Shown: positions 5,494 to 21,309 of the stretch, one piece after another
How positions within the stretch are numbered: position 1 is the stretch's first letter
Layout of the letters: each line of letters starts with the position of its first letter
IMG/VR virus record: IMGVR_UViG_3300020420_000655
Coordinates: 1-21,566 of that record
Source: a virus
Length of the DNA stretch: 21,566 nucleotides
Reading direction: 5' to 3' (one strand)
Made by a program: the position numbers and the translations under genes
Notes under the pieces: model-generated
Told to the model about the DNA's origin: nothing
Seen by the model: only the letters and a program-made list of their open reading frames with translations
The model's database searches: none

Positions 5494-7351
5494 TAGAATA
5501 AATTGTAATCGGTTCTTCTTTACCTTTTACTTTAATTGTATCTACTTTTGTAAAGGATATGTCTGGACATTTCATGTAAGTAAACTCAGATATCAATACT
5601 TTGTTATCTAAGTATTTACCTCTTGCAGCTTGTGCTTCTAGTCTTGCACCTAGATTTACTGCATCTCCAATAACTGAGTAATCAAATCTTAATTCACTTC
5701 CCATGTTACCTACAATACAATCTCCTGTATTGATTCCTATGCCTACATTGATAGGTGGTAGTTTAAGTGGTTCAAGTTCTACATTTAACTGTTCTGTTGC
5801 ATCAATAATTTCTCTTGCAGATTCTACAGCTTTACTTGGATGGTCTTCACAATCTAGTGGAGCTCCCCAGAATGCCATAATACAGTCGCCCATATACTTG
5901 TCAATTGTTCCACCATATTTGAGAATGATTTTTGTTTGCATATCTAAGAATTTGTTTACCAGATTAACTAGTCCCTCTGGGTCATCTCTATTCTTATAAG
6001 CTTCACTTATGGGAGTAAATCCTACAATGTCAATGAACATGAAGGTCATTTCTTTTCTATCACCCCCCAGTTTTAATAACTCTGGGTTATTAGCAAGTTT
6101 GTCAACCATCTCTGGTGATAAGTATTTTTTAAATTGTCCTTTGATTTGTTCCTTTATCTTGTAGGTTACAAAGTATTTGTTGAAGGATGCGTGTCCAAAG
6201 ACTACAATCCCTGTAAGTGCAGAATACAATGCATCAAACAGTATTAAATATTCTATCCATAACCAGTATGATATTCCAACTGAAAGTCCTATTGTTCCGA
6301 TTGACAAAATACCAGATACATATGTTGGAGTTTGATACACCAAGAGTAATACTAAAAGACCTAGACCGATGACTAAAACTATTTCTACAAAGTCTAAAAG
6401 AAAATTATTCTGAATAGTTTCACCAGAGATGACAGTTTGTAGTAGGTTAGCTTGCACTTCATGAGGATACATGACACCTTTTGGTGTTGATACTGGATTA
6501 TTAAATCCTTCTGCTGTCATCCCCCAGATAAGTATTTTGTCTGAAATACCATCATGACCATGTAATGTTTTTTCAGTTAGGTCTGATGCAGATATTCTAT
6601 CAAAGTCATTCCAATATGTAATCATAACATCCGATGTAGATGTAGTTTCTATAGGTGGTTGTCGACCCATTCGTATCCATTCGATTCCAACTTCTGGTGT
6701 CACTCTGGTTTGATAATTAGGTTGGTCATAAAATGCACGAAGAGTTTCAAGTGCAACCGATGGATATATTTGGTCATTTGCAGATACTATAAGTGGTGCA
6801 GACCGAACAGTTCCATCAAAGTTTGGTGTATCTGGTAAAGGTGGAGTAGAAACTGTCACTCCTACACCATAAGTGTTATCTTGTAGTATTTTAATTGGTG
6901 CAGACATGCCAGAAAAACTCCAGATAGAATCTTTAATATCTCCACCACCAAAAACCGAAGTCTTTACATATGGTGCAGAACCAGTATCTTTTTGACTTGT
7001 AGGAGCTGCAGATAAAATACTTAATCTATTAACTAATCCTTCTGCAAACTTTTCATCTCCACCAAATCTATCTGGTTGATTGAATACTTGAGTAAATACA
7101 TGAGTATTGGAATAATGTGTTTCTAACATTATCTCAGAATAGATATTACGAGGCCATGGATATTGTCCATACTTATCTAATGACTTTTCATCTATATCGA
7201 CAAGTAAAATATTATCTACGAGTTGTGATTCTTTTTGTTGATGAAGAACATCAAAGTAAGACCATTTGATATTATCAACAAGGTAAGGTGACCATATTTT
7301 TAATCCTACCAACACTCCAAGTGTAAGTAGAACAGTTTTCCAATTATACAT
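5483..7351 (-). CDS. CHASE2-domain receptor adenylate cyclase (class III)
   Basis: This is a 622-aa membrane receptor enzyme predicted to make cAMP from ATP. Residues 1-20 form an N-terminal membrane anchor. Residues 30-310 form a CHASE2-type periplasmic sensor (IDEKSLDKYGQYPWPR early; PHEVQANLL near its end). Three hydrophobic segments follow at about 320-340, 345-368 and 370-388. The cyclase domain spans about 432-622. Metal-binding D441 (FIDIVGFT) and D489 (DKYMGD), the adenine-selecting pair K485 and D557, and the transition-state residues N566 and R570 are all present, so the domain appears active and ATP-specific rather than GTP-specific. It is the last gene of the curli-like operon and starts with a TAATG overlap with the 71-aa gene. 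CHASE2 cyclases are often neighbours of FecR-domain genes in bacteria, as here. The signal sensed is unknown. A full-length receptor cyclase is most unusual in a phage. Confidence 0.93.
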   Translation of the reverse strand: MYNWKTVLLTLGVLVGLKIWSPYLVDNIKWSYFDVLHQQKESQLVDNILLVDIDEKSLDKYGQYPWPRNIYSEIMLETHYSNTHVFTQVFNQPDRFGGDEKFAEGLVNRLSILSAAPTSQKDTGSAPYVKTSVFGGGDIKDSIWSFSGMSAPIKILQDNTYGVGVTVSTPPLPDTPNFDGTVRSAPLIVSANDQIYPSVALETLRAFYDQPNYQTRVTPEVGIEWIRMGRQPPIETTSTSDVMITYWNDFDRISASDLTEKTLHGHDGISDKILIWGMTAEGFNNPVSTPKGVMYPHEVQANLLQTVISGETIQNNFLLDFVEIVLVIGLGLLVLLLVYQTPTYVSGILSIGTIGLSVGISYWLWIEYLILFDALYSALTGIVVFGHASFNKYFVTYKIKEQIKGQFKKYLSPEMVDKLANNPELLKLGGDRKEMTFMFIDIVGFTPISEAYKNRDDPEGLVNLVNKFLDMQTKIILKYGGTIDKYMGDCIMAFWGAPLDCEDHPSKAVESAREIIDATEQLNVELEPLKLPPINVGIGINTGDCIVGNMGSELRFDYSVIGDAVNLGARLEAQAARGKYLDNKVLISEFTYMKCPDISFTKVDTIKVKGKEEPITIYSIDK

Positions 7352-7566
7352 TATACATTTAATTCATCTTCTAGTTCTATTATATAGTCTTTCATATCAA
7401 TCATCCATTCTTTGAGTCTAAGATATTGTTTGTTATGAAAATCTTTATATTTTTTATCAGTTGATAGGATTGACATCTTTTGATGATAATCCATAGTCTT
7501 GAGTACCAAGGCAATTGCATCTTGATAAGGCATTCTTACTGTGGTTGAAAATTCTCTTTTTGACAC
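7351..7566 (-). CDS. Hypothetical helical protein (71 aa), GTG start
   Basis: This encodes a soluble, mostly helical protein with several Met, Lys and Asp residues and an acidic C-terminus (IIELEDELNV). The first codon is GTG at 7566, chosen because a TAGGAG ribosome site overlapping the stop of the preceding curlin-like gene lies 9 bases upstream. An in-frame ATG at 7533 would shorten it by 11 residues. It ends in a TAATG overlap with the cyclase, so the two are probably co-translated. I do not recognise a family. Position suggests a partner or regulator of the cyclase, but this is inference only. Confidence 0.7.
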   Translation of the reverse strand: MSKREFSTTVRMPYQDAIALVLKTMDYHQKMSILSTDKKYKDFHNKQYLRLKEWMIDMKDYIIELEDELNV

Positions 7567-7578
7567 TCAAAATAGCTC

Positions 7579-8238
7579 CTAGTTTCCTTGGGTCACAGTT
7601 ATAGAACAACCACCAGTAGTATAACAAGACTGATTTAAAATATAACTTTGATTCGTACTACCTTGTTGTGTTAGATTCAATGTTACTGGTTGATTACCAT
7701 AAATTCTAATTTGTGAGTTATGATTTGCATCACCAGTTTGAGATACATTAGTATCTGAACCATGAGTACTTCCATAAAAATATGTTTGATTGTAATGACT
7801 TCCTTGTCCATCTTGCCAAACATCATGGTCAACATTACTTACATGAATATCTAAATTATGTGTATGAGTCCCATTTTGATAAATGTCCACATCATTATTA
7901 TTACCCCAGATATGTCTACCATAAGTTGCACCATTTAATTGCATGACTGCTTCATTATTATTTACACCATCAACATCACCACCCCATGACTTACCAGAAC
8001 CCCAATAAGATACCCAACCAATGTAGTTGTCATTTCCACTTTGTGATAAATTAAATACATTACCAGAATGGTCAAATGAAAATTCTATTGTATTTCCATA
8101 TCCCATTTGGTCAATGTTAAGTTCTAAATCGTCTCCACTACCAACCTGTTCTACATGAACATGGTTGTCATCTGTAGGGCCTGCATTTACAGACATACTG
8201 ACACTAATTAGACTGATTAATAATAATCCTCGAATCAT
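7579..8238 (-). CDS. Secreted curlin-repeat protein (second curlin-like subunit)
   Basis: This encodes 219 aa from the ATG at 8238. That start has AGGGG 6 bases upstream and gives a clean signal peptide (MIRGLLLISLISVSMSVNA, cleavage before GP); an ATG at 8244 sits too close to the site. The mature protein is rich in Asn, Gly, Gln, Ser, Thr and His and carries Q-x-G-x-x-N motifs (DQMGYGN, SQSGNDN, SQTGDAN, TQQGSTN), the signature of curlin amyloid repeats. The C-terminus has a Cys pair (CYTTGGC) and the curlin-like ending ITVTQGN. Repeat spacing is less regular than in CsgA. It would be exported by Sec and then through the CsgG pore encoded upstream. It overlaps the FecR gene by 35 bases. Confidence 0.82.
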   Translation of the reverse strand: MIRGLLLISLISVSMSVNAGPTDDNHVHVEQVGSGDDLELNIDQMGYGNTIEFSFDHSGNVFNLSQSGNDNYIGWVSYWGSGKSWGGDVDGVNNNEAVMQLNGATYGRHIWGNNNDVDIYQNGTHTHNLDIHVSNVDHDVWQDGQGSHYNQTYFYGSTHGSDTNVSQTGDANHNSQIRIYGNQPVTLNLTQQGSTNQSYILNQSCYTTGGCSITVTQGN

Positions 8239-9346
8239 CTCCATCCCCTATAAGTATTATACCTTCGTATCCTTCTACTATTGTTTCTAAGTATACATTT
8301 GAACCACTGTCAAATGCAATTTCTATAACTCCATTTACATCTCTAAAGAAAACTAATTTTTCATCTTCTATAAAGACATTGTATTGTGAGTCTTGGTTTA
8401 GTCCTTGTACTGCACCATCAACTCTAAAACTTCCGATACTACCACTTGCACCATCGGCTGATGAACCTCTTACTTTTTTATCTAATGCTTCTACAACATC
8501 AAGAACATCTCTAAGTAAATCAACATTCAATGCATCTATATCTAATGCAGAATATTCTAAATCTTCTTCGGTTTCTTTAAGTTCATCTGTTTCTAAATCA
8601 TTAAACTCTAAAAAATCTACTTCTAAAATTCCTTGGTCTTTATCTAAATCGTCCTGTGCTTGTTCTTGCACTGCAATTTTAACTTCCTGTGGTGGATTAA
8701 CGATAAACATATTGTTAATCATTGAAGGTGTAATATTCTGTATCGTTACTGCAACTGTTGGTGGTGTCTCAAAAGACGATACCATTGTTGCTTGATAAGG
8801 TTCATTTAGTATTTGTTCACCACCTTCATTTATTACCACTATCTCTCCAGATGCTTGTCCATCGTCATCTGGAAGCAAAACTACAAGTGACCTACCAAGT
8901 TCATCAATTGTAGTTGTAAAATCTGTTCCATTTATGGCTATCTGTGCAGTTGGCGTTGTGATATCAATATTTGCTTTGTTTATCTTTTTTCCATTACCAC
9001 TTGCAAATCTAGCTGTTCCTTGCACCATTCTAATTGACATTTTAGACAATGATGGATTAGGGTCATAATAAACTTCATCAATATACACTTGAGTATGTTC
9101 TGTCAATGCAAGTTCTTCTTTATCTAAGAACTCAATTAACATACGACCATTACCTGTTCGTGCTTCATCATATAACACAATATCTGAACCGATATCATGT
9201 GGTAAGGTTTCATTGTTTCTAACAATTCCACCTATACCTGTAGATTCGACTATATCACCTATGGAGTCAGCATAAACCGACCCCATAAAAGTGAACAGAC
9301 TAACTGTCGTTAGAAGAATCTTTTTGATTAATTGTGACTGTTGCAT
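8204..9346 (-). CDS. FecR-domain periplasmic protein
   Basis: This encodes 380 aa with a signal peptide at 1-26 (cleavage after VYA). A FecR-type beta domain spans about residues 30-150: GDIVESTGIGGIVRNN, ARTGNGRMLIEFLD, then an IRMVQGTARF segment and the characteristic ITTPTAQIAINGTDF near 129-143. The middle (about 225-295) is very acidic with helical LLRDVLDVVEAL. The C-terminal part (about 300-380) is predicted beta-rich. FecR proteins classically relay outer-membrane signals across the periplasm, but stand-alone FecR proteins of this type also occur beside CHASE2 cyclases. It lies between two curlin-like genes and overlaps both. Its own ribosome site is weak. It may couple the secreted fibre or CsgG to the cyclase sensor. 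Confidence 0.85.
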   Translation of the reverse strand: MQQSQLIKKILLTTVSLFTFMGSVYADSIGDIVESTGIGGIVRNNETLPHDIGSDIVLYDEARTGNGRMLIEFLDKEELALTEHTQVYIDEVYYDPNPSLSKMSIRMVQGTARFASGNGKKINKANIDITTPTAQIAINGTDFTTTIDELGRSLVVLLPDDDGQASGEIVVINEGGEQILNEPYQATMVSSFETPPTVAVTIQNITPSMINNMFIVNPPQEVKIAVQEQAQDDLDKDQGILEVDFLEFNDLETDELKETEEDLEYSALDIDALNVDLLRDVLDVVEALDKKVRGSSADGASGSIGSFRVDGAVQGLNQDSQYNVFIEDEKLVFFRDVNGVIEIAFDSGSNVYLETIVEGYEGIILIGDGDDSRIIINQSN

Positions 9347-10037
9347 TATCAGAATTCACATCTAAAACAATTGTCGAATTAGGTGTTGCACATCCATTAC
9401 CAGCACCAGAAACACATGTTCCAGATACTTGGTTAATATCAATATCCCCACCATCACCTGTCCAATCGACAGTTTGTGTGTGAGCACCATCTTTCATTAA
9501 TACATTTAGATTATTACTGTCACCAGTAATCTCCCAATTAAATGTGTCATCATCAGATTCAAAATCTAAATCAAATACATTTGAACTACCTAGGATAGTC
9601 ATATCTAAGTCTAGTCTTTCAGCACTAAACTGATATCCTTGGTCTAAATCCCATGTGTTTGAATCACCTGTGACTGTGATGTCAAATGTTGAATCATCAC
9701 TAGACCCAGTATAACCAATGTTCCAATCTAAAACATTTGAATCCCCTGTGAAAGACAAGTTGTAATCACTTGTATCTGCAATCAAAGGCCCAAAGATTTT
9801 ATTTTGGTTTCCAATTTGGTCAATGTCAATATTAAGCGTAGTACCTGTAATAACCATCTTGTCATCGTAAGCATTAGTTTGAGAAATTTTGTTTCCAAAT
9901 CCTACTTGGTCGATTAACAAAGTTAGTGTATCACCTTCTTGGTCTATCCTAATTTCGTTATCATCAGTCGCTTGTGCAAAAAGAATATTAGTCGACAAAA
10001 ATCCTACAAAGATTAAACTTATAAGTTTTTTATTCAT
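9300..10037 (-). CDS. Secreted curlin-repeat protein (first curlin-like subunit)
   Basis: This encodes 245 aa from the ATG at 10037, which has GAGGAG about 10 bases upstream and a good signal peptide (cleavage after LFA). The longer frame upstream has no such support. The mature chain is Asp/Asn/Thr-rich with a G-x-x-N repeat: GFGN, GNQN, GDSN, GDSN, GSSN, GDSN. Successive motifs are spaced 30, 22, 26, 26 and 22 residues apart, close to the 22-23-residue period of E. coli CsgA. Several are preceded by DQ as in curlin repeats. A C-terminal Cys pair (TCVSGAGNGC) and a final VTINQ strand parallel the second curlin-like protein. It overlaps csgG by 8 bases and should be a CsgG-exported fibre subunit. 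Confidence 0.82.
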   Translation of the reverse strand: MNKKLISLIFVGFLSTNILFAQATDDNEIRIDQEGDTLTLLIDQVGFGNKISQTNAYDDKMVITGTTLNIDIDQIGNQNKIFGPLIADTSDYNLSFTGDSNVLDWNIGYTGSSDDSTFDITVTGDSNTWDLDQGYQFSAERLDLDMTILGSSNVFDLDFESDDDTFNWEITGDSNNLNVLMKDGAHTQTVDWTGDGGDIDINQVSGTCVSGAGNGCATPNSTIVLDVNSDNATVTINQKDSSNDS

Positions 10038-11022
10038 TTTCGTTAAGCTCCTCGAAAGGTTCTGCATCACTATCAATAATCTCGTTTAGTTCATCGTACC
10101 ACTCATGTAGTTCGTTTTCACCATCCGATTGATGTGGATGTCTATGTCCTTTCTCTATTACCCAATAGCCCCTATCGTGACCTTGGTAAATTAATTCCAA
10201 CACTCCTGCTTCAATAGCACTTCGTGTTGCATATGTCACCGACTCATTATTACCCACTCCATCCTCTATCTCGACTAGTTGAGTTCCTTCTTCGATGAAT
10301 CTAAAAACATCGCCCCCAGAACCATAACTTAAAATAGTCTTACGACTTTGGACATTCAATAATACTTCACCTGTTAGAACTGAAACAGCTCTAATAGAAA
10401 CTGTAACTGCATCTTGACGATACTGTTTACTAAATCCTATACCTAATGTTCTTGCACCGCGTCCACCAGTTTTTAAATTGGTGTCATAGCCAATAATTCC
10501 ACCTTCTATTATCATTCCTGCGAATAGAAGTGGTGCAATTCCATTTGATTCTTCATTGTTTGCTTCTGCCCATTCTTTACGAGCAGAACGAATAATTTGT
10601 CTTTCACGAACTAAATTATCCAAACCTGTTCTTTCAACAACTCTGAACCATGTTCCACCACCTGCTGTTTTTAGTGCATCTATTAACATTGCACTAGAAC
10701 CTTGAGTCACAGCAGTAGAAAATGATGCATATGCATCTAATTGTTTTCTTTGACCTGTTAAATCATTGAAAGTATATACTGCAACAATAGGTTTTTCTTT
10801 TGCTGGTGGTAATTCTAGTAACTCTAAGTATGCTGGTAATCTTACTGCTGTAGGATGTTCAACACAAATATATTTCCTAGACAACTGTTTTTTTACAGCT
10901 GTATATAAATCTTTAGATAACCCTTCGTCCCATCTACTACAGTCCTGTGGATTTTCACTCCATTGTGGGAATGATGCACAACCTGTAAGAATCGAAAGGG
11001 ATAAAATTAAAAACCATTTCAT
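10030..11022 (-). CDS. csgG: CsgG-type outer-membrane curli secretion lipoprotein
   Basis: In E. coli CsgG forms a nonameric outer-membrane channel that exports curlin subunits. This protein (330 aa; E. coli 277) starts with a lipoprotein signal whose lipobox is LTGC (12-15). The CsgG domain spans about 63-290 and shows many hallmark stretches: NDLTGQRK, FSTAVTQGSSAMLIDAL, RFR-equivalent FRVVERTGLDNLVRERQIIR, EGGIIGYDTNLKTGGRGAR (174-191), SRKTILSYG, VFRFI and AIEAGV. In the constriction loop F101 aligns with E. coli F56, while Asn55 is replaced by Ser. There is an N-terminal insert with C28 and C53, and a His/Asp/Glu-rich C-terminal tail of about 40 residues. It is coupled to csgF by TAATG and precedes two curlin-like genes. 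Confidence 0.95.
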   Translation of the reverse strand: MKWFLILSLSILTGCASFPQWSENPQDCSRWDEGLSKDLYTAVKKQLSRKYICVEHPTAVRLPAYLELLELPPAKEKPIVAVYTFNDLTGQRKQLDAYASFSTAVTQGSSAMLIDALKTAGGGTWFRVVERTGLDNLVRERQIIRSARKEWAEANNEESNGIAPLLFAGMIIEGGIIGYDTNLKTGGRGARTLGIGFSKQYRQDAVTVSIRAVSVLTGEVLLNVQSRKTILSYGSGGDVFRFIEEGTQLVEIEDGVGNNESVTYATRSAIEAGVLELIYQGHDRGYWVIEKGHRHPHQSDGENELHEWYDELNEIIDSDAEPFEELNENE

Positions 11023-11567
11023 TAGCCATCCCCATCAGAACTACCACTACCATCGTCACCAAAATATCCAGTTCCGATTGGTATCTCAATAACTGTTGTA
11101 GAACCTTCTTGGTCTACAATGGTCATTCTAATAAACTCTGTACCATCTTCATTAGTAAGTACTTCGTATGTGACTGTTGAACCTTCTAAGACAAATGACC
11201 CAAATCTAACTGGGTTATCATTAGAGAACATAGATTCTACTAATTGTTTTGCCATCTGAGCATAAATTCTGCTTTCAAGGTTTCTAATAAATTTTGCAAG
11301 CGTTGTGTTGTCTGCTTCTCTCTCTGCAGCTTTTCTTGCAGCTTCTAAAGCATCTTCTATTGCTTTCTTTCTGCTATGTTCTTGATTCTCAATGGTAAGA
11401 TAATGTGCGCCTGTTCCTATACCACTAAAGCTTGGGTTTTTAAACTTATGTTTAATTTCGTCTGCACTTATATTTGGTGTTAGTGCAAGTAATGATAATA
11501 CAAAGAAGGTAACTAAAACACCTACTTCAAAATTATCACTTGTAAAAATCTTTTTTCTCTCTTTCAT
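11022..11567 (-). CDS. csgF: CsgF-like curli assembly factor
   Basis: CsgF binds the outer face of CsgG and couples secretion to fibre nucleation. This protein (181 aa) has a charged n-region, a hydrophobic segment at about 14-33 and a cleavage site after NISA (residue 35). The mature start contains FKNPSFSG (42-49), matching the FxNPxFGG motif by which CsgF inserts in the CsgG pore. The later part has a helical Ala/Glu-rich section (67-110) and a closing beta pair with ITV-type strands (GSTTVIEI) like CsgF. The C-terminus is Gly/Ser/Asp-rich and the helical part is more charged than in E. coli. It overlaps the preceding gene by 32 bases and shares the TAATG junction with csgG, as expected for a CsgG-CsgF pair. 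Confidence 0.87.
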   Translation of the reverse strand: MKERKKIFTSDNFEVGVLVTFFVLSLLALTPNISADEIKHKFKNPSFSGIGTGAHYLTIENQEHSRKKAIEDALEAARKAAEREADNTTLAKFIRNLESRIYAQMAKQLVESMFSNDNPVRFGSFVLEGSTVTYEVLTNEDGTEFIRMTIVDQEGSTTVIEIPIGTGYFGDDGSGSSDGDG

Positions 11568-12202: not shown

Positions 12203-12562
12203 TTAAACTGGGTTAAAAGTCATAGAAACACCACATCCACACGATGCAGTGACATTTGGATTGTTAAATGTAAATTCCTCTCCTAATCCAGTTCTAACAA
12301 AATCTAAAACTAAATTTTCTAGGAAAGGTCTAGAGTTATTATCAATGTGAATAGAGAATTTACCATAATCTATTACTTGGTCAGAAGGTTCATTGGTGGT
12401 ATTGAAATCGAATATGTATTCATACCCATTACAACCACCACCAGTGACACCTAGTCTGATTTCAGAGAAACCCTTTTCCTCTGCTTTCTTAACCAATTGG
12501 ATAATTGCAGAGTCAGTTAACTCAATATTAACTGTCGGCTTTGAATATGCGATAGGCTCCAT
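12203..12562 (-). CDS. A-type iron-sulfur carrier, IscA/ErpA family (HesB-like)
   Basis: This encodes 119 aa from the ATG at 12562, chosen for AGGA 7 bases upstream; a longer frame to 12583 is possible. The core begins with IELTDSAIIQLVKKAEEKG. The three cluster-binding cysteines are present: C44 in GGGCNGY, and C108 and C110 in SCGCGVS near the C-terminus, preceded by the NNPN element. Such proteins bind and deliver Fe-S clusters or iron to apo-proteins. In a phage it is an auxiliary metabolic gene. The Fe(II)-dependent oxygenases of the modification cassette could create iron demand, though that link is speculative. It overlaps the 59-aa membrane gene by 35 bases. Confidence 0.93.
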   Translation of the reverse strand: MEPIAYSKPTVNIELTDSAIIQLVKKAEEKGFSEIRLGVTGGGCNGYEYIFDFNTTNEPSDQVIDYGKFSIHIDNNSRPFLENLVLDFVRTGLGEEFTFNNPNVTASCGCGVSMTFNPV

Positions 12563-12707
12563 AGACCAGTCCTGCCCAAGCAAGATACTTGACTATTGGT
12601 GCAAGTAAGATTGCTCCTAATGATATTCCGACTATAATAGCACCATCTAAAGATGATAACTCTCCTAGTCTCTCTTTCATGTATTCTTTAATGAAATTAA
12701 TATCCAT
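12528..12707 (-). CDS. Small membrane protein of 59 aa
   Basis: A frame from ATG 12707 to TAA 12528 has a GGGAG ribosome site 8 bases upstream that overlaps the stop of the 79-aa gene. The first 20 residues are charged and helical (MDINFIKEYMKERLGEL). Residues 23-54 are hydrophobic with Gly/Ala and Tyr (AIIVGISLGAILLAP, then KYLAWAGLVYGAYRIF), giving one long or two short membrane helices. It is short enough to be missed by length cut-offs. Its 3' end overlaps the IscA-type gene in another frame. Function is unknown. Confidence 0.72.
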   Translation of the reverse strand: MDINFIKEYMKERLGELSSLDGAIIVGISLGAILLAPIVKYLAWAGLVYGAYRIFKADS

Positions 12708-13441: not shown

Positions 13442-13839
13442 TACTTGTTAACTACTCCTATGTTGTATTTTGGAACTAAATCCCATTCATTTTTCTCCCT
13501 ATGTGGAAGAACTTTAATCTGACTCATCGGTGCAATTGGGTCTTGATGATTGTTAGATATAACTTTGAGTAATCCCCATTCTTCTAGAAGTTTTGCAATT
13601 GCATTTCTTCTACCTATATCAGATTCGACAAAAGAACTATCTTTACCATCAAGTAAAAACAATTCTTTAAAGTGGACAAGGTAGTATTTACCTCGTTTAT
13701 GTAATATGTGGCAAGATTGGTAAAGTATTTTTTCTTTACGAGATGCAACTCCTATTCGAGTTAGTGTTTCCTTTACTTTTAGAAAATCATCCTGTTGTTT
13801 CAACTCTACCTCTACCATGTTGGAGAGGTCATAGTTCAT
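13441..13839 (-). CDS. regA: RegA translational repressor
   Basis: T4 RegA binds the ribosome sites of early mRNAs, including those of genes 44 and 45, and represses their translation. This protein (132 aa; T4 122) contains DFLKVKETLTRIGVA, LYQSCHILHKRGKYYLVHFK, LLEEWGLLKV and the C-terminal EWDLVPKYNIG, each nearly identical to T4 RegA. The start at 13839 is supported by GGGAG 6 bases upstream and a TAATG overlap with gp62. The internal Met8, which would match the T4 start better, has no ribosome site. In T4 regA lies between 62 and 43; here gene 43 is about 11 kb further downstream. Confidence 0.97.
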   Translation of the reverse strand: MNYDLSNMVEVELKQQDDFLKVKETLTRIGVASRKEKILYQSCHILHKRGKYYLVHFKELFLLDGKDSSFVESDIGRRNAIAKLLEEWGLLKVISNNHQDPIAPMSQIKVLPHREKNEWDLVPKYNIGVVNK

Positions 13840-14216
13840 TACTTTCTCCCACCTGTTTTCATTCTCTCTTTCATAATTCCTATTTCCTTTGCAGTAAGAA
13901 TCTTATAGTATTCTTCTGCTTTACTCATAGAACAGTCATAATAAGTTTGGATGACTTTCATATCTTCCAATACTCTAGGTTTGTTCCATTTAGCAAACCT
14001 TTTTCTTTTTCTTAAAGTATTTAGGAAATAATGGAATTGTAGAGACGAATCTAGGTGCTTTCTAGAGTTCATTTCATTAACATACATGATACAATCTTGA
14101 TGATAAGATAGAGACTTATTAGTCAAGAATGGTGAATATGACTTTTCTGCAACATCATCTACCATGATATCTTTCTTGGAAAAGGTTATTGCAGTGACAA
14201 AATCAAATGGATTCAT
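13839..14216 (-). CDS. 62: Clamp-loader small subunit gp62
   Basis: gp62 joins four gp44 ATPase subunits to form the loader that places gp45 clamps on DNA. At 125 aa it is shorter than T4 gp62 (187), as in marine T4-like phages. Recognisable stretches are MNPFDFVTAITFSKKD, the central LSYHQDCIMYVNEMN, and the basic LNTLRKRKRFAKW (65-77). It is followed directly by regA. The start overlaps the stop of the cytidylyltransferase-like gene as ATGA with no clear ribosome site. Its translation therefore seems to depend on the last gene of the modification cassette, whereas in T4 it follows gene 44. Confidence 0.9.
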   Translation of the reverse strand: MNPFDFVTAITFSKKDIMVDDVAEKSYSPFLTNKSLSYHQDCIMYVNEMNSRKHLDSSLQFHYFLNTLRKRKRFAKWNKPRVLEDMKVIQTYYDCSMSKAEEYYKILTAKEIGIMKERMKTGGRK

Positions 14217-14611
14217 TTTTGAGATATTACTTTTTCTTTGAGGTTAGTAGTTGAAAAGGAATGTTCTCTACTAGTGTAGTAGATTTCATGAAGTCCTTTC
14301 CCTGTAAATTCTTTGTTTGCCCAGTCCTCTCCTATAAATCTTAAGTGGATGGGTTTTGTTGCTTCTAGTAAATCAAGTAAACTTTGTTCAGTGTCATAAG
14401 GTATAATCTCATCAACATACTTGATTGCATCCAATTGTATAAATCTTTCATATACAGATTGAATAGGTTGACTTTTTTCTTGTCTATCAATCGATGGGTC
14501 TGTTTGTAATCCTACAATAAGATAATCACAATTCTCTTTTGCTTCTTTCATCATTACTACATGTCCAGAATGTAATAAGTCGAATGCACCACATGTAAAT
14601 CCTACTTTCAT
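14213..14611 (-). CDS. Cytidylyltransferase-like nucleotidyltransferase (TagD/HldE-C type)
   Basis: This encodes 132 aa, the length of a single-domain HIGH-type nucleotidyltransferase. It has the opening VGFTCGAFDLLHSGH, whose HSGH (14-17) is the HxGH nucleotide-binding motif, and a C-terminal STT (120-122) matching the RTxGISTT element in a divergent form. The family activates glycerol-3-phosphate, sugar phosphates or similar compounds as CDP- or ADP-derivatives. Here it follows two glycosyltransferases with ATGA coupling, so it may supply an activated donor for decorating DNA, lipid or a surface glycan. The substrate cannot be read from sequence. It ends in an ATGA overlap with gp62. Confidence 0.88.
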   Translation of the reverse strand: MKVGFTCGAFDLLHSGHVVMMKEAKENCDYLIVGLQTDPSIDRQEKSQPIQSVYERFIQLDAIKYVDEIIPYDTEQSLLDLLEATKPIHLRFIGEDWANKEFTGKGLHEIYYTSREHSFSTTNLKEKVISQK

Positions 14612-15780
14612 AATACTATATCCATCATATCTTTAAAAACAAAATCAGAATCATAATAAGAATAAAAGTCTAAAGCATTCTTTCTATATTCATTTCTCAT
14701 ATCATTATCATTTGTAAGTTCTACTATTAGGTTTTTACATTCTTCCATATTATTTTCCGATAACCATATTGTCCCACTGTTATCGATATCTGTCAAGGGT
14801 TTATCGTAGTATCGATGAATACAAAGGTCTCCATATTCTTTTCTAAAAACTGGAACTGCCCCAACTGCAACTGGTTCTAAATGTGTAAACTCTAAAGACT
14901 TTGCCATATACTTTTCTCCTAGAAGACTCAACTGATATCCATAAGAAGATAAAGATAATCTTTCTAGTAATTCATCATTTACATATTGACCAAACACTGT
15001 AAATTTATCACCATACCTTTCTAGTAAATCTACTTCATTTACATCTGAGTTTATTTCATTGTAAAAGTCATATTGGTTTTTAAACTCTATAAAGACTGGA
15101 CTTCGTTCTATCCCTTCTAATGTAGTTAGATGACCAGCACCCTTTAAATACTCATCATGGAATCTAATCATCAAGTCATAACCTTTCCATCTTGAAGTTC
15201 TACCTATCCATTTATGATGATGTGCATCTTGTTCCTCAATTCCTTTCCAATACTTTTTGTAATTTGAAAATGATATTGCAGGCTGCATTAAGTGAATTGT
15301 TCTGTCTGCATCCAAATCAAAAAGATTTGGTGTGTTTACTATTTCTGCAAAATCACCAGTTTGAGAATGTGCAAAGATATAGTCTACCTTTTCATATGAT
15401 TCTTGTAATAAAACATTTCTTCTAAGTGATGATATGTTATGGTCATGTTGTATGGAAACCTTTTTAGTTTTTAAATCAAATAGTTTAGAAAAGTTTTCAA
15501 TGCATTCTTTACTATGATTAACAGATGGAAGAGAATTGAAAATTATTATATCTGATTCTTTGCATCCTTCATAAACCTCATCAAAATCATCACGACCAAA
15601 ATGAACATGAACTAAATTATGAAAAGTATGTGAATCATTTCTTGACCACTTCTTATCTTTAGATGCATAGACAGTTGTATCATGAGAGTTTTTAATTAAC
15701 CAATCTTCTAACTCAACGCAGTATTTGGTTACTCCACAACCCTCAACTCCTCTGCCCATTACTATTGCAATCTTAGACAT
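14608..15780 (-). CDS. GT-B fold glycosyltransferase, GT4-like
   Basis: This encodes 390 aa from the ATG at 15780, which gives a proper first Rossmann strand (MSKIAIVMGRGVEGCGVTKY); the frame extends 11 codons further into the upstream gene. The N-terminal domain continues with IIIFNSLPSV, the linker region contains IGRTSRWKGYD, and the donor-binding part has THLEPVAVGAVPVF, matching the E-x7-E/EPxxxGxPV region of GT4-type retaining transferases. It overlaps the GT8-like gene by 8 bases and the cytidylyltransferase by ATGA. In this context it may add sugar to an oxidised methylcytosine, but an acceptor in a glycan or protein is not excluded. Confidence 0.85.
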   Translation of the reverse strand: MSKIAIVMGRGVEGCGVTKYCVELEDWLIKNSHDTTVYASKDKKWSRNDSHTFHNLVHVHFGRDDFDEVYEGCKESDIIIFNSLPSVNHSKECIENFSKLFDLKTKKVSIQHDHNISSLRRNVLLQESYEKVDYIFAHSQTGDFAEIVNTPNLFDLDADRTIHLMQPAISFSNYKKYWKGIEEQDAHHHKWIGRTSRWKGYDLMIRFHDEYLKGAGHLTTLEGIERSPVFIEFKNQYDFYNEINSDVNEVDLLERYGDKFTVFGQYVNDELLERLSLSSYGYQLSLLGEKYMAKSLEFTHLEPVAVGAVPVFRKEYGDLCIHRYYDKPLTDIDNSGTIWLSENNMEECKNLIVELTNDNDMRNEYRKNALDFYSYYDSDFVFKDMMDIVL

Positions 15781-16423
15781 CGTAGTCACTCTCATTAAAT
15801 GTTTTTGTTCCACCAGATGTGTTTATGTGAGTTATGTATTTTCCTTTCTTTGACCAATGACCCCAATCATTTGAAAGAAGATTGTAGTTTCCATAATAGT
15901 TATTACACAAAATATTAAATAGTGATTGGTCATGTTGTGGTTGTGGTTTTTCTAATTCTTCTCTCCAGTGGTCTTTGGTATTTTCATAAAACTTTCTATC
16001 AAACAACATAGTTCCAGAACAAAAATAATTATAGTCTTCTCTAAGGTTAAATCTTTCTTTATCTCTTTGTTGTTTTTGAAGACCACTAGGTGTATTACTT
16101 TTATCTTGCATAGCAGAGAATACATCATATTCAAAAATGTTAGGACAATCTTCTCTTACTATTGCATCACTATCTAAGTAAAAAATTTTATCATATCCTT
16201 CTTTAAACAATTCGTATATGTATAACTTATGATATGCTGGAGAATATTCTTTTCCTAACCACTCATCACTTTTCAAACAAAAATAATCTGCTTCAGTAAA
16301 CTCTGCATATGCTAATGCTTTCTTAGATGAGAATTTATATAAATCTTCAACATAATGAAATACTTTTCTACCTTCTGACCTTCCACCATTTGGTGGTATT
16401 TGAACTTGAAAAACTAGGTTCAT
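15773..16423 (-). CDS. GT-A fold glycosyltransferase, GT8-like
   Basis: This encodes 216 aa. The metal-binding DxD is D84-S-D86 in KIFYLDSDAIV. It is followed by the CSGTMLFD element (135-142), the HDQSLFN segment (164-170) and a late HINTSGGTK (199-207), the order seen in GT8 (glycogenin and LPS galactosyl/glucosyltransferase) enzymes, which use UDP-sugars. It starts with an ATGA overlap with the TET-like gene and GGAG 8 bases upstream. It is the first transferase after the oxygenase, making it the best candidate to glycosylate the base that oxygenase produces. That substrate is inference. Confidence 0.85.
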   Translation of the reverse strand: MNLVFQVQIPPNGGRSEGRKVFHYVEDLYKFSSKKALAYAEFTEADYFCLKSDEWLGKEYSPAYHKLYIYELFKEGYDKIFYLDSDAIVREDCPNIFEYDVFSAMQDKSNTPSGLQKQQRDKERFNLREDYNYFCSGTMLFDRKFYENTKDHWREELEKPQPQHDQSLFNILCNNYYGNYNLLSNDWGHWSKKGKYITHINTSGGTKTFNESDYDV

Positions 16424-17421
16424 AGAAATGACTCCAAACTACCTTTCTCTTCATACTTACTTGCATGTTGACCAATAGGTTTTTCTGTTTTACCACCATA
16501 TCCTTTTGTTGCAACATCTGTTGAACAATATGCAACACATGATAATCTTATTCCATCACCTTCAATCTTGGTGACTCCATGTATCTCATTTGAATCTGCA
16601 ATCAATACATCACCATCATCTGCTTCAATGGCAACTCCATATCTTGGGAATACCAAGTATGCACCACCAAAGTCACCTAGTCTAAACACGCACATAGTAG
16701 TCATACCAAACTCTAGGTCTTTACCATCAACATGTGCCGACATCTTTGCAGTTCCTTCACTTGAATATCTATTTGCAGATAGAGTTGTTATAGGAGCTCC
16801 ACCCAAGTGATACTTCTCTTCAATACATTCATCTGCATATGTTCTTTGTAATTTCCAGATATCTGGACATCCTTTCTTAAGTGCTTGTTCATTGATAGTT
16901 GCAATCTGTTGCATCTTCTCCCACTTTTCTACATTAGATTTCTTTTCACACCAGTTTGATAATCCTATCATACCATTGAATCGACCTCTCTTATAACCAG
17001 CAAATACAGAATGAATTGCATTTGCCTCTGCAATACGATTGAACTCTCCATTCTTTTTAAGTGGATAGTAAGAGTTTGGTGTTCTTAAAACATAATCTTT
17101 ACCTTCAACCAATCCTTTCTTTTTCATTTCTTCATGGTCAATAGGGCCAGATGCATTTGCTCTCATAGTTGATACATCATCTATAGAATACAATGTATCT
17201 TTTACTTCGTTGTAGGTATCACCTGTATATGCATTCTTTACGATACATGCAAGTAATGGTTTATCAAATAATGAACCACTTGGTTTATATATTCTTATGA
17301 TATCATCTTCGACACCAATAGATGATACAACATCATCATACGATGTTTCATCTAACCACTTACCATTAAACTGGTCGTGTGTTTCTTTTTTCCCTAAGTC
17401 TTTTTTTGCAGTGAATTCCAT
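16420..17421 (-). CDS. TET/JBP-like 2OG-Fe(II) dioxygenase (5-methylcytosine oxidase candidate)
   Basis: This encodes 333 aa, a length typical of phage TET-like proteins. The double-stranded beta-helix core lies in the C-terminal half: HxD at H230-V-D232, a FGGAYLVFP strand (251-259), GDVLIADSNEIHGV with distal H281, and the 2OG-binding R292 in IRLSCVAYC. The N-terminal 200 residues contain a PLKKNGEFNR region and a helical stretch with several Trp and Cys, as expected of TET/JBP relatives rather than prolyl hydroxylases. It overlaps the C5-methyltransferase gene by 28 bases. Phage TET enzymes that oxidise 5mC made by a co-encoded methyltransferase have been described, and this pairing reproduces that layout. 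The start lacks a clear ribosome site and is probably coupled. Confidence 0.85.
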   Translation of the reverse strand: MEFTAKKDLGKKETHDQFNGKWLDETSYDDVVSSIGVEDDIIRIYKPSGSLFDKPLLACIVKNAYTGDTYNEVKDTLYSIDDVSTMRANASGPIDHEEMKKKGLVEGKDYVLRTPNSYYPLKKNGEFNRIAEANAIHSVFAGYKRGRFNGMIGLSNWCEKKSNVEKWEKMQQIATINEQALKKGCPDIWKLQRTYADECIEEKYHLGGAPITTLSANRYSSEGTAKMSAHVDGKDLEFGMTTMCVFRLGDFGGAYLVFPRYGVAIEADDGDVLIADSNEIHGVTKIEGDGIRLSCVAYCSTDVATKGYGGKTEKPIGQHASKYEEKGSLESFL

Positions 17422-18659
17422 GGTTCTAATACCTGTTGTTTAATTTGCTCTACTAGGTAATGCAAACATAATGGTGCAACCATTAATCCTATTCTTGCAC
17501 CTTTGTCATTATAATCTCCTGTCATCTTATAATCATTTGGTAATGTCATAAGTCTGACCATTTCTTTTGGTGTGTATATTCTTTTACCACTATAATAAAA
17601 ATGATTACCACCCATAAACTTTGGTTGACATCCTTGTTCAGTTAAAGAATGTGCTGGAAGAAATTTAGGAACAATCCTTGACATGTAGTAGGAATGTTTT
17701 TCGTCTTCTGGTTTTAAGTGTCCATTTTTAATTTGTTCTTGAAACCAAGGTTTAACAATATCATCACCTATAGATATATAGGGCCTATTTTCAAGTCTTT
17801 TCATAACTGGTTCTAATCCTTCACATGGGCCACAATGTGCATAATTTGGGTCTGGATGTTTTTCAAATCCAGTTATCCAATGTGCTTTAGATGATTTTAA
17901 CATTTCACCCTCAAGATATTCTGCATCTTTTTGATTCTCTTCATCGTCTACTAGGTCATCTATTGCTTCTCCGATTGATGTTCTTTCACTTGTAGTCTCT
18001 GGAAACAATCCACTCAGACACATAAAAGGTAATCCTATTGCATCTAATACATCATCCCTTACTGCAACTATAAACACTCGTTCCCTTTTTTGAGGAACTC
18101 CATGTTCATGTCCCTTCATAATCTTCCATGTAACTGAGTATCCTATCTTTTCAAAGTCTACTATCATCTTGTTTAGATGGTCTCTTGCATAATCCATGGA
18201 AAGACCTTTTACATTTTCACATACAATAACTTTAGGCATGACTTCTTCTGCAATTCTAATCATTTCCCATGTAAGGTCTTCAATGTTTTGTTGTTTCATT
18301 CCATATGCAACTTTTTCTTTGTTCCATCCTTCTCTTTTAGAACCAGCCATAGAAAATGGTGGACATGGTGGAGAACCATCCATAATATCAAGTTCACCTT
18401 TTTGTAATCCTGTCATTTCTAAAATATCTTTACCACTGACCTCTTTTATATCTTTACATTCATGAACTGTGTTTGGAAAGTTTGCAAGATAAGTATCAAC
18501 ATGTATTTGTTGAAACTCATTCATATACTTTACATCACCACCAGAAAGTTTATATGCACATGATGAACCACCACCGCCTGCAAAAAAAGTAATGTAATTA
18601 AACTCTTTTCTTGCAGAGTTTTTATGTAAATCATCTAATGTGTATTGAAAATAACTCAT
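17394..18659 (-). CDS. DNA (cytosine-5-) methyltransferase
   Basis: This encodes 421 aa from the ATG at 18659, chosen because AGGAG lies 5 bases upstream and the ATG overlaps the preceding stop as ATGA. Motif I is FFAGGGGSS (25-33). Motif IV GSPPCPPFS contains the catalytic C99. Motif VI ENVKG (148-152) and motif VIII QKRERVFIVA (190-199) are intact. Motif X reads RIGLMVAP where the canonical form is QIGNxVPP, so the Asn and one Pro are replaced. The target-recognition region lies about 230-345. Here it would install 5mC as substrate for the adjacent TET-like oxygenase rather than act as a restriction-evasion enzyme alone. No cognate endonuclease is nearby. The target sequence is unknown. Confidence 0.94.
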   Translation of the reverse strand: MSYFQYTLDDLHKNSARKEFNYITFFAGGGGSSCAYKLSGGDVKYMNEFQQIHVDTYLANFPNTVHECKDIKEVSGKDILEMTGLQKGELDIMDGSPPCPPFSMAGSKREGWNKEKVAYGMKQQNIEDLTWEMIRIAEEVMPKVIVCENVKGLSMDYARDHLNKMIVDFEKIGYSVTWKIMKGHEHGVPQKRERVFIVAVRDDVLDAIGLPFMCLSGLFPETTSERTSIGEAIDDLVDDEENQKDAEYLEGEMLKSSKAHWITGFEKHPDPNYAHCGPCEGLEPVMKRLENRPYISIGDDIVKPWFQEQIKNGHLKPEDEKHSYYMSRIVPKFLPAHSLTEQGCQPKFMGGNHFYYSGKRIYTPKEMVRLMTLPNDYKMTGDYNDKGARIGLMVAPLCLHYLVEQIKQQVLEPWNSLQKKT

Positions 18660-19435
18660 TGTTCTCCTTTCCATAAATCTGGAAATGGTATTGCTTGATA
18701 CATTTGCCCATCAAGTCCCCATTCAAAATCTATATGTTTTTGTTCAGAAAAATAAATAGATTCTGGAAAAATATCAAATGCAACTGTTACTCTTGGTTTA
18801 TCTCCTGTCCAAGGAGACGATGCATGTTCAAATCCACTAGAAGAATATATCAACATATCATCATAATCTTCATGGACAATCCACTCACTCTCTGGTTGTT
18901 CTGGCCCTATTCTATAAGTTGTTGTAGATGGTTTTACATTTGCACAATAGAATCCATGGTAGATGTGTGGATGCATATCTTCAATGTGTTTATGAAAAGG
19001 TATATGGTCGTATCCTTTATCATTTTCTCTTTTTGTATAAACATTAAACCATCCATGTATATAATATGATTCACCAGATTCTTTAACCTGTGAATTACTA
19101 TAAAAGAAACGATTTAGTTTCCAGTAAATATCTGAAAAAGGTCTTAGTCCAAATGTAAAAGGATTATAGGTATAAAAGTCTTGTCTTTCTTTTGTGTCTA
19201 AATCAAATTGATGCTCTTTTTCTTCTTTAGATAAATCTGCACCTTCTTTAGATGCACGAACATATCCACGAAGATTATTACTAAATTGATTTGGTATTGC
19301 AATTCCATCCTCATCGTGTGCAAAGAATGGATGATTTTCGTGTTCAATACACCAATCAGTAATAAATTCATAATCTATCCCACAATCCTTTTGGATAAAA
19401 AAATCAGAATTCTTGAGTGTTACTTCTGTCTTCAT
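18656..19435 (-). CDS. Second 2OG-Fe(II) oxygenase (phage hydroxylase family)
   Basis: This encodes 259 aa. A likely jelly-roll core occupies about 120-225: the histidine-rich HIPFHKHIEDMHPHIYHGF (144-162) containing the probable H150-x-E152 iron ligands, a CANV strand, then SSSGFEHASSPW with distal H204 and PRVTVAFDIF with R215 for 2-oxoglutarate. This H-x-D/E...H...R arrangement recalls the many 2OG-Fe(II) oxygenases of marine T4-like phages, which have mostly unknown targets. It lies directly before the C5-methyltransferase with ATGA coupling. It could act on the modified base, on a protein residue or on a sugar donor. It overlaps the small membrane gene by 32 bases. Confidence 0.75.
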   Translation of the reverse strand: MKTEVTLKNSDFFIQKDCGIDYEFITDWCIEHENHPFFAHDEDGIAIPNQFSNNLRGYVRASKEGADLSKEEKEHQFDLDTKERQDFYTYNPFTFGLRPFSDIYWKLNRFFYSNSQVKESGESYYIHGWFNVYTKRENDKGYDHIPFHKHIEDMHPHIYHGFYCANVKPSTTTYRIGPEQPESEWIVHEDYDDMLIYSSSGFEHASSPWTGDKPRVTVAFDIFPESIYFSEQKHIDFEWGLDGQMYQAIPFPDLWKGEQ

Positions 19436-19592
19436 ATTCTAACTTAACTATTACATGTTCATTTTTTCGAACACCTTTATTGTATAGATGTGAATACATT
19501 TCATCTGCACCTTTTCGTATTCCATTATATTCTCCCCATGAGTATATAGCAAAAAACAAAATGCAAAGAAATATAAATGTTATTATTTCCAT
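19404..19592 (-). CDS. Small single-pass membrane protein (62 aa) after gp44
   Basis: The start is ATG 19592 with GGAG 5 bases upstream; a GTG at 19598 is less likely. Residues 3-20 are a hydrophobic segment (IITFIFLCILFFAIYSW), followed by a basic, hydrophilic domain with Tyr and Asn. It overlaps gp44 by 10 bases and the second oxygenase by 32. It is the first gene of the inserted cassette. No family is recognised, and nothing links it to DNA modification except position. Confidence 0.68.
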   Translation of the reverse strand: MEIITFIFLCILFFAIYSWGEYNGIRKGADEMYSHLYNKGVRKNEHVIVKLEYEDRSNTQEF

Positions 19593-20515
19593 CGACACTC
19601 CATCATTAATTCAGTTAGACATGCAACGATATTCACCTCTTGGTCAACCACAAATGCAGACTTATAACTATAATCTGCAATAATAATTACAGCCTGTGGT
19701 ATACTTTGTGGTTCTAATACATCATAAAGTGTATCGTAAATCTTTCTAAATAATTTTACTGGGTCGTTGTCGATATTAGTTGCAACCCATTTTCTCATAT
19801 CTGTAAATCTTTTTGTTTTGACATGTCCAAGTAATTCTTGAAGACTCTCTTCTGCAATATTAGATAGTATTCCTACATCTATCTTACCACTTACTGCATA
19901 TCTTTGTAATTCATTAATGGTTCTACGAAAGTCTGGAAAATATTTCATGACTAATTCTTGTAAAACTTCATTGTTATATTCAACACCTTCATCATCAAGA
20001 ATCAACATAAGTCTTGCAAGAAATACAGATGCAAGTCTTGGTCTTTCACTTGGTGGTATCTTAAAGTCAATTACAGTGCATCTTGAATGCAAAGGTGCAA
20101 TCAATCTGTTTTTATAATTACATGTAAAGATAAATCTACAATTTTTATGAAACTCTTCTATAAATCCACGAAGAGCTGGTTGAGTTGATTGTGGATTTAG
20201 ATAATCTGCTTCATCAAGAATAACTACCTTGTTCCCACCACTTAGTGAAACTGTAGATGCAAAGTTTTTGATTTTAGTTCTCAGAACATCAATACCACTT
20301 TCTTCTGAACCATTGATTAAAATATAATCACAATTGTGCATTTCACATAATGCTTTTGCAATTGTAGTTTTACCAGTTCCAGCAGTTCCAGTAAGAATCA
20401 TGTTTGGTATTTCATCTTTGATATCAAAAAATGTTTGTTTGATATCGGATGGTAAAACACAATCTTCTATTGTTTTAGGTCGATACTTTTCAACCCATAA
20501 GAAATCTTCATTCAT
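19583..20515 (-). CDS. 44: Clamp-loader ATPase subunit gp44
   Basis: This AAA+ ATPase opens the gp45 clamp and loads it at primer-template junctions (310 aa; T4 319). It starts with FLWVEKYRPKTIEDC, the usual RFC-box-like opening. Walker A is GTAGTGKT (43-50), Walker B VVILDEAD ends with D101-E-A-D, sensor 1 is TCN (131-133) and the arginine-finger SRC is 144-146. The C-terminal part is the helical collar domain. GAGG stands 7 bases before the ATG. Just upstream is AATGAGG, resembling the RegA site known at T4 gene 44, after a 122-base leader. The next gene is not 62, as in T4, but the modification cassette. Confidence 0.97.
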   Translation of the reverse strand: MNEDFLWVEKYRPKTIEDCVLPSDIKQTFFDIKDEIPNMILTGTAGTGKTTIAKALCEMHNCDYILINGSEESGIDVLRTKIKNFASTVSLSGGNKVVILDEADYLNPQSTQPALRGFIEEFHKNCRFIFTCNYKNRLIAPLHSRCTVIDFKIPPSERPRLASVFLARLMLILDDEGVEYNNEVLQELVMKYFPDFRRTINELQRYAVSGKIDVGILSNIAEESLQELLGHVKTKRFTDMRKWVATNIDNDPVKLFRKIYDTLYDVLEPQSIPQAVIIIADYSYKSAFVVDQEVNIVACLTELMMECRWK

Positions 20516-20637: not shown

Positions 20638-21309
20638 TTAAGAACCAAATGTTGAATCTGGTTCTAATGCAATAAAATACTCAAGTCCTTTATTCTTTGC
20701 AACAAAATGTGCAAGACCTTTAGACGAAACATAAACTGTATATTCATCTTTTACAATTTTAATGTTTTCCATTTTGAAATTCATTGCATATGATTGTCCA
20801 TCACCATCCATGATTACTTCACTAAATTCATTAGTTGATGGATTCTTTTTATCTCTAACAGATAGTGATACTACAGTCCCATTACTTTCCAATACTAAGT
20901 CTGGAAGAGATAACACTGCACTTGCTTTTTGTAACTTAGTTAGCAAGTTAGTATCCAAATCAAAAACCACTTCTGGATTAGGCATAGTAATATCTTTTTC
21001 TGGTGGTGCAATAATCATTGATGCATCTGCATAATTATATGTTGCACTTGCACCATTACCACTAATGTTTACAGAATTTTCACCGAAGTCAAATTCTGCA
21101 TCATTACCTAACAACGAAATAGTTGCAAGAAACTCTGGTAAATCATATACAGAAAACTGACTTGTAAAGTTATCTGATATCGTTGCTTTACCAAAGATAT
21201 TTTTCATTGGTGAAATTGTTTTAATTTCACTCCCTGTTTGCACTGTAATACCATTATTGATACTACTAAAGTTTTGTAAAACTTCTAAAGTACTTTCACT
21301 TATTTTCAT
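20638..21309 (-). CDS. 45: Sliding clamp gp45
   Basis: gp45 is the trimeric processivity clamp of the replisome and, in T4, also the mobile activator of late transcription (223 aa; T4 228). The N-terminus MKISESTLEVLQNFSSINNG aligns with T4 MKLSKDTTALLKNFATINSG. YDLPEFLATISLL and the C-terminal YFIALEPDSTFG match T4 conserved segments (YDLNGFLGILSL, YVVALEADST). TAGGAG just before the ATG overlaps the stop of the DUF3310 gene. Since late promoters of TATAAATA type occur in this window, its role in late transcription is probably conserved. Confidence 0.96.
   Translation of the reverse strand: MKISESTLEVLQNFSSINNGITVQTGSEIKTISPMKNIFGKATISDNFTSQFSVYDLPEFLATISLLGNDAEFDFGENSVNISGNGASATYNYADASMIIAPPEKDITMPNPEVVFDLDTNLLTKLQKASAVLSLPDLVLESNGTVVSLSVRDKKNPSTNEFSEVIMDGDGQSYAMNFKMENIKIVKDEYTVYVSSKGLAHFVAKNKGLEYFIALEPDSTFGS

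Follow-up and report, generated by a model that had tools for sequence, protein, structure and literature searches.

The viral record IMGVR_UViG_3300020420_000655, analysed here over its entire 21.6 kb (positions 1–21,566; hereafter the window), belongs to a T4-like marine myovirus, and between its clamp-loader genes gp44 and gp62 are inserted six linked minus-strand genes (14213–19435) that probably form a replisome-coupled, post-replicative cytosine hypermodification cassette. In gene order these are OX1, a C5-cytosine DNA methyltransferase (MTase), a TET/JBP dioxygenase (TET), a GT8-family glycosyltransferase (GT8), a T4-type DNA alpha-glucosyltransferase (AGT), and a TagD-like gene. The most likely route, judging from the enzymes' sequences, is conversion of cytosine to 5-methylcytosine (5mC) by MTase, to 5-hydroxymethylcytosine (5hmC) by TET, and to alpha-glucosyl-5hmC by AGT. 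The genes, the borders of the gp44–gp62 interval (referred to as the slot), and two short C-terminal peptides considered below are as follows:

20638–21309, minus strand: gp45-like sliding clamp, the predicted tether partner, identified by position and size
19583–20515, minus strand: gp44 clamp-loader large subunit, upstream border of the slot (phrog_168, 6.5e-122)
18656–19435, minus strand: OX1, a predicted 2-oxoglutarate (2OG)-Fe(II) oxygenase fold and the constant first gene of the slot in this clade
17394–18674 (probable start 18659), minus strand: C5-cytosine DNA methyltransferase (PF00145, 8e-48, 163.9 bits)
16420–17421, minus strand: TET/JBP dioxygenase (PF12851 Tet_JBP, 51.0 bits against a cut-off of 34.9, 1.2e-13)
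16423–16443, minus strand: C-terminal clamp-binding-like peptide GSLESFL of TET, from motif and conservation
15773–16423, minus strand: GT8-family glycosyltransferase, slot position 1 (PF01501, 2.4e-10)
14608–15813 (probable start 15780), minus strand: T4-type AGT, slot position 2 (PF11440, 1.7e-73)
14213–14611, minus strand: TagD/HldE-type nucleotidylyltransferase (PF01467, 3e-14)
13839–14216, minus strand: gp62 clamp-loader small subunit, downstream border of the slot (PF16790, 3e-12; phrog_225, 2e-37), with homology to sibling phages resuming at 14216
96–116, minus strand: C-terminal clamp-binding-like peptide SLEDFFS of the phage DNA polymerase (gene 93–2573)

The core genes all lie on the minus strand in the order gp45 clamp, gp44, cassette, gp62, regA, curli operon, and DNA polymerase, and the gp45-like gene precedes gp44 as does the annotated gp45 of the isolate Methylophilales phage Melnitz, the gp45–gp44 pair being kept in syntenic loci. 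A space of 147 bases separates gp44 from OX1. MTase and TET are joined by a 28-base overlap, ATGA junctions are present at OX1/MTase, TET/GT8, AGT/TagD, and TagD/gp62, and GT8 and AGT overlap by 8 bases if the AGT start is placed at 15780, the point from which it is homologous to T4 AGT. Because every junction from OX1 to gp62 is an ATGA or a longer overlap, gp62 now trails the cassette in one overlapping run. A preliminary description of this DNA, made from its letters alone, had named a methyltransferase, a TET-like oxygenase, two glycosyltransferases, and a cytidylyltransferase here; all are present on the minus strand with the corresponding family matches (PF00145, Tet_JBP, PF01501, PF11440, and PF01467), and the overlaps it claimed are borne out, the 8-base overlap with the AGT start just given. 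That description did not recognise the T4 identity of AGT, the gp44 and gp62 flanks, the exchangeable slot, or the clamp-like tail.

Profile and predicted fold together identify the TET-like protein as a true member of the TET/JBP family. How its TET score compares with that of other 2OG oxygenases was a concern of the preliminary description, and the Tet_JBP match is far the higher, with the competing 2OG model PF13640 reaching 16.1 bits, below its cut-off of 27. Searches of the PDB with the sequence profiles of TET and OX1 gave nothing useful, and we therefore predicted both structures with AlphaFold2 (AF2). The TET model (pLDDT 85) matches TET2 with a Z score of 21.4 (266 aligned residues, 3.5 Å), NgTet1 with 17.6, and CMD1 with 17.2, the first non-TET row having 14.3; TET2, NgTet1, CMD1, and CcTet all rank ahead of FTO, AlkB, and every other 2OG enzyme. 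Residues H230, D232, H281, and R292 are invariant in 51 sequences, and from knowledge of the family we take the first three to be the iron triad (HxD...H) and R292 to be the 2OG-binding arginine.

Assignment of MTase to the C5-methyltransferase family rests on PF00145 and on its catalytic motifs, with SPPC (S101–C104), ENV (E153–V155), and QKR (Q195–R197), together with R199, invariant in 47 sequences. Its best PDB relative is CmoX (8yf3, 3.5e-70), with HhaI at 2e-13. Motif X reads RIGLMVAP, in which Leu397 is a leucine in 47 of 47 sequences, so that the asparagine facing the transferred group (HhaI N304 equivalent) was not found; CmoX-like enzymes have GR at this point and the ordinary phage methyltransferases compared have GN, and GL may be diagnostic for TET-coupled methyltransferases. 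MTase and TET lie side by side in most of the 69 viral contigs that the TET search brought in, and their catalytic residues are invariant, which argues that the pairing is not chance. GpC and CpG statistics do not separate MTase–TET genomes from siblings lacking these genes.

The AGT profile match is full-length (248 bits, profile positions 1–353 of 355), with 4e-86 against the T4 AGT structures in the PDB and 39–41% identity over 97% to AGTs of isolate phages. All six T4 residues contacting phosphate, ribose, and glucose (G15, R204, E311, H114, H116, and H140; roles from PMC6024577) are kept and are invariant in eight sequences. The candidate arabinosyltransferase of RB69 keeps none of the three glucose histidines (H114, H116, H140), and since these are kept here UDP-glucose is the likely AGT donor; arabinosylation as in RB69 was rejected on the same basis. 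The partner enzyme, GT8, has a D84-S85-D86 motif invariant in six sequences and alternates at slot position 1 with TAGT_a, sibling slots carrying TAGT (PF20691, 'TET-Associated Glycosyltransferase'). A PF20691 match was sought for the window GT8 and none was found, the protein matching PF01501. In T6, TAGT adds a second glucose onto alpha-glucosyl-hmC (PMC13216743), and the slot grammar described below suggests that GT8 may add a second sugar in its place.

In this lineage 5hmC is most likely made in the DNA, because no PF00303 protein (thymidylate synthase/dCMP hydroxymethylase) was found in any of 12 related records, two of them of about 146 kb, or in Melnitz, and CmoA was likewise not found in the 12 records. 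As a positive control for the PF00303 search, the AGT phage Cronus, which uses the T4 route, gave two matches. The combination of AGT, MTase, TET, and either GT8 or TAGT also occurs in two distant phages (L074 and L079), with the order MTase, helicase-like gene, GT8 or TAGT_a, AGT, TET. Enzyme identities, kept residues, and the lack of PF00303 and CmoA in relatives all favour the post-replicative path from cytosine through 5mC and 5hmC to glycosyl-5hmC that the preliminary description put forward, and the principle on which it drew, that of phage TET and methyltransferase enzymes working with tailoring enzymes, holds up as well. The helicase-like gene of L079 (4936–6723) and L074, lying between MTase and GT8-AGT-TET, encodes a superfamily 2 helicase/ResIII-like protein with a weak HNH match that might act on unmodified DNA.

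To the 69 loci from the TET retrieval we added those fetched with AGT, gp62, OX1, and TagD, and a script read out the gene orders. Within the clade of the window, the gp44–gp62 stretch begins with OX1 and is variable afterwards. Following OX1-MTase-TET, we find GT8-AGT-TagD (the window), TAGT_a-AGT-TagD (L072), TAGT_a-TAGT_c-TagD (L006), GT8-TAGT_c (L004, and L003, whose contig starts in TET), TAGT_c alone (L009), an epimerase with TAGT (L011), or an uncharacterised protein with a P-loop kinase (L080, L082). Siblings without MTase-TET have instead an N6/N4 methyltransferase (L084), glycosyltransferases with a DruA-like protein and TagD (L090, L100), or, in the gp62-side slot of L089 (3–2037), GTP cyclohydrolase and a TGT-like protein; the last label (TGT/DpdA-like) is based on a DSGGLQ-type motif and context, without a family match, and this slot is probably a deazaguanine DNA modification variant. 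With GT8 or TAGT_a at the first position and AGT or TAGT_c at the second, all four pairings are present and always in that order, TAGT_a and TAGT_c being about 33% identical. Other phages have MTase-TET at a second site, flanked by peroxiredoxin and a lysozyme-side gene.

Phages exchange the segment bounded by the TET stop codon and the start of gp62 as a module. DNA alignments of the window to four siblings break off at the TET stop codon (16420–16424) and resume at or near the gp62 start (14216) where it is covered. Against L072, DNA identity is about 96–100% over AGT and TagD and about 85% over gp62, and the protein identities are mosaic likewise. A plausible consequence is that the swapped module sets the final sugar decoration.

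The TET tail resembles that of the polymerase, as complete polymerases in related loci end in [ST]L[DE]xFF[GSA]. Across the aligned TETs, G327, L329, and F332 do not vary, and the linker before them (318–326) is conserved at only 31–76%, and a C-terminal motif defined as L-x-x-[FMY]-[FLMIY] is present in 56 of 58 distinct TET open reading frames (ORFs), the other two having truncated-looking tails. The same motif ends the slot glycosyltransferase families TAGT_c, GTx425, and GT295 as well as the complete polymerases; the N6/N4 methyltransferase of L084 ends GSLSSFFE and the TGT-like protein of L089 ends SSSLEGFFE. Among some 30 other families there are at most single stray matches, and the motif is absent from the window MTase, GT8, and AGT. 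Distant TETs of the T4-like isolates C48C1 and DLP_6 end SLEEFFV and TLGDFFV, that of Cr30 has a shorter ATLF, and no tail is seen on the TETs of P12024L and HTVC112P, which are small phages assumed to lack gp45; the TET of S-CBWM1, also without a tail, is a partial exception. No tail was clearly seen in Melnitz gp55, nor in gp33 of Melnitz and G004. In T4, gp55 has a C-terminal clamp epitope after a divergent linker, and the motifs of gp43, gp33, and gp55 are interchangeable (PMC2988020); the layout of the TET tail, a short hydrophobic and acidic peptide behind a divergent linker, fits these clamp-binding proteins. T4 AGT itself binds gp45 (PMC13216743), a likeness to the clamp-like tail on the window TET. 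The polymerase-like tail on TET and on several unrelated sibling-slot enzymes suggests that the sliding clamp probably serves as a tether for modification, with TET presumably binding gp45 through its C-terminal peptide.

We infer the following scheme. MTase would methylate cytosine at C5 in freshly made DNA; TET, by strong homology, would convert 5mC to 5hmC; AGT, with its conserved T4 residues, would move alpha-glucose from UDP-glucose onto 5hmC; and GT8 would attach the second sugar, replacing the TAGT that does so in T6. The polymerase-like peptide would keep TET on the gp45 clamp, such that oxidation takes place at or just behind the fork, and phages that swap the interval between TET and gp62 would thereby vary the sugars. 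The most likely purpose would be protection from restriction and other nucleases. A broader reading, on which we are evenly divided, is that T4-like marine phages have replisome-tethered, plug-in hypermodification, in which the clamp takes the modifying enzymes along behind the fork, whole tailoring sets are swapped between the clamp-loader genes, and the C-terminal clamp-binding peptide of the polymerase has been taken up separately by enzymes of six or more families that are unrelated or only distantly related (TET, glycosyltransferases of TAGT type and others, the N6/N4 methyltransferase, the TGT-like protein, and a Mom-like acetyltransferase).

Several observations weigh against the proposed cassette or its coupling to the clamp, and four alternatives were weighed. 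The most substantial concerns the tail, since the peptide with SLxxF[FL] may have another role, such as folding or dimerisation, or may be chance, leaving modification with no link to the clamp; we regard this as doubtful. The motif is short and expected by chance in about 1% of proteins, or roughly one to two proteins per genome, and three whole genomes have it in three to four proteins (polymerase, TET, and one or two others) where 1.5–2.1 are expected; the genome-wide count alone is not significant and was set aside as evidence, the claim resting on which proteins bear the motif. A binomial estimate gives about 1e-7 for at least 6 of 26 slot families and 3e-6 for at least 5 of 25 without TET, rough values from families hand-counted post hoc, and tethering accordingly depends on recurrence in unrelated modification enzymes picked after the pattern was seen. 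Moreover, gp45 binding does not determine the extent of alpha-glucosylation in T4 (PMC13216743). What favours clamp binding nonetheless is the invariance of the TET tail behind a divergent linker, the similar tails on unrelated sibling-slot enzymes, and the presence of a tail on distant TETs of two T4-like isolates and on neither TET of the two small phages.

It is also conceivable, albeit improbable, that MTase and TET make 5hmC while GT8, AGT, and TagD decorate another target, for example a host surface polysaccharide, and so block superinfection. Published work attributes GT8 enzymes of related phages to surface sugars (PMC7029224), and GT8 and rfaE/TagD-like genes of pelagimyophages and cyanophages to lipopolysaccharide or O-antigen (PMC7029224, PMC7824862); TagD is found in many contexts without TET. 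However, AGT belongs to a DNA enzyme family and keeps the T4 functional residues, siblings hold TAGT in the equivalent slot, and the pairing of AGT with MTase-TET recurs in distant phages. That MTase uses a cofactor other than S-adenosylmethionine (SAM), similar to the carboxy-SAM (Cx-SAM) of CmoX, with a first product that is not 5mC, is suggested by its closest solved relative and by the leucine where ordinary enzymes carry asparagine; we consider this very unlikely, because the carboxylate-reading Arg350 of CmoX (PMC12783734) is not found in MTase, which has leucine at that position, no CmoA turned up in the 12 related records, and the gene constantly found next to it encodes TET, an enzyme known to act on a methyl group. 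Membership of MTase among CmoX enzymes was rejected for the first two of these reasons. Least probable of all is that AGT uses 5hmC produced at the nucleotide level by a T4-like gp42 elsewhere in the genome, with MTase-TET a separate epigenetic or restriction-related unit. T4-like phages do use that nucleotide-level route, and since the window covers just 21.6 kb, gp42 or CmoA could be encoded elsewhere in its own genome, but the PF00303 searches of relatives were negative with a working control, and AGT lies in one overlapping, co-travelling gene block with MTase and TET.

Phage TET hypermodification has been known since 2021, and T4 AGT is classical. Burke et al. (PNAS, 2021; cited in PMC11404850) reportedly described phage clusters with TET and a C5-methyltransferase, which have in common with the window an adjacent MTase and TET followed by tailoring glycosyltransferases and a post-replicative 5hmC route. 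The window differs in tailoring with a T4-type AGT and GT8, in adding a TagD-like gene, and in the location of its block between gp44 and gp62; its TET, in addition, bears a clamp-like tail. With T4 and T6 DNA glucosylation (AGT, PF11440; TAGT, PF20691, beta-glucosyl-HMC-alpha-glucosyltransferase) it shares the AGT and, with T6, the partnering of AGT with a GT-A enzyme, although here that partner is GT8, and T4 and T6 make hmC at the nucleotide level with gp42 whereas the window route is MTase and TET in DNA. Melnitz has an adjacent MTase (54%) and TET (54%) beside DNA polymerase, a clamp-like tail on TET, and the same curli operon, but has no AGT and has other genes after TET, and its published annotation names just a methylase (PMC9004378). 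No AGT was found in any of seven searched isolate phage genomes carrying a TET relative. In the carboxymethylcytosine pathway of S-B43 (CmoX/CmoA/CmoY; PMC12783734), CmoX is the enzyme closest in sequence to the window MTase, and in S-CRM01 CmoA-like and CmoX-like genes are likewise beside clamp-loader genes; the window differs in having leucine for the key arginine, in the absence of CmoA from its relatives, and in having TET in place of a ligase.

The pairing of AGT with MTase-TET, the slot grammar, and the clamp tails appear to be new, and a limited literature search turned up neither clamp tails on phage TETs nor the gp44–gp62 slot. One phage operon brings together two established routes, 5hmC production by TET and glucosylation of the T4 type, and modifying enzymes apparently built to ride the sliding clamp offer a testable reason why such operons lie beside replication genes. 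With a two-position glycosyltransferase slot, phages may alter their DNA coat by swapping a single gene, which is relevant to how they escape restriction and defences based on DNA glycosylases. TET, AGT, and GT8 are also candidate tools for 5mC and 5hmC sequencing.

OX1 has no Pfam, PHROG, or NCBIfam match, and its assignment as a 2OG oxygenase is one of fold, from an AF2 model (pLDDT 80, pTM 0.83) resembling 3bvc and 2rg4 (Z about 13.5) and PHD2 (Z about 13), with H148, H150, H204, and R215 invariant in 18 aligned sequences. It also leads slots without MTase and TET (L084, L090, L100) and is absent where MTase-TET occupies the other site. OX1 thus belongs to the slot and not to the TET route, and is weak evidence for an exotic base, which weakens the earlier suggestion that a second 2OG oxygenase points to an unusual final base.

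The TagD-like protein is nearest among solved structures to ethanolamine-phosphate cytidylyltransferase (4e-21) and glycerol-3-phosphate cytidylyltransferase (6e-19), and its HxGH and RxHSFS motifs are invariant in 47 sequences. It falls below the equivalog cut-off for glycerol-3-phosphate cytidylyltransferase (TIGR01518, 69.9 against 165.4 bits) and below that for the HldE heptose-1-phosphate adenylyltransferase domain (TIGR02199, 77.2 against 181.5 bits). The CDP-activated donor proposed earlier is in keeping with these nearest relatives, but TagD is found beside several unrelated glycosyltransferase sets and the AGT histidines favour UDP-glucose, which together argue against TagD as the maker of AGT's donor. 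It may either supply an activated donor to a slot glycosyltransferase or be a passenger.

Some further observations touch on these families. The C48C1, Cr30, and DLP_6 genomes (L272, L275, and L276), which encode distant TETs, have no C5-methyltransferase, and the substrate of these TETs may be thymine or 5mC made by the host. A small P-loop kinase (PF18751) lies directly or soon after TET at L036 (2824–3357) and several dozen other loci, and is a candidate 5hmC DNA kinase representing a different tailoring route. DruA-like proteins (PF14236) occur beside TagD and glycosyltransferases without MTase-TET at both modification sites (L100, L181, and L230), possibly another modification chemistry. 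In Melnitz (L263:44572–45381) a protein annotated as DUF465, a Mom-like acetyltransferase by eye, ends TATLEGFF and so adds another modification-type enzyme bearing a clamp-like tail.

Elsewhere in the window, a curli-like operon (5483–11567) with CsgF/CsgG-like, curlin-repeat, and FecR-like genes and an adenylate cyclase-like gene lies between regA and the polymerase; such an operon is known from pelagimyophages and Melnitz (PMC7029224, PMC9004378). Genes for an A-type iron-sulphur carrier-like protein (12203–12583), a small heat-shock protein (4702–5205), and a peroxiredoxin-like protein (4086–4634) are located in the same region.

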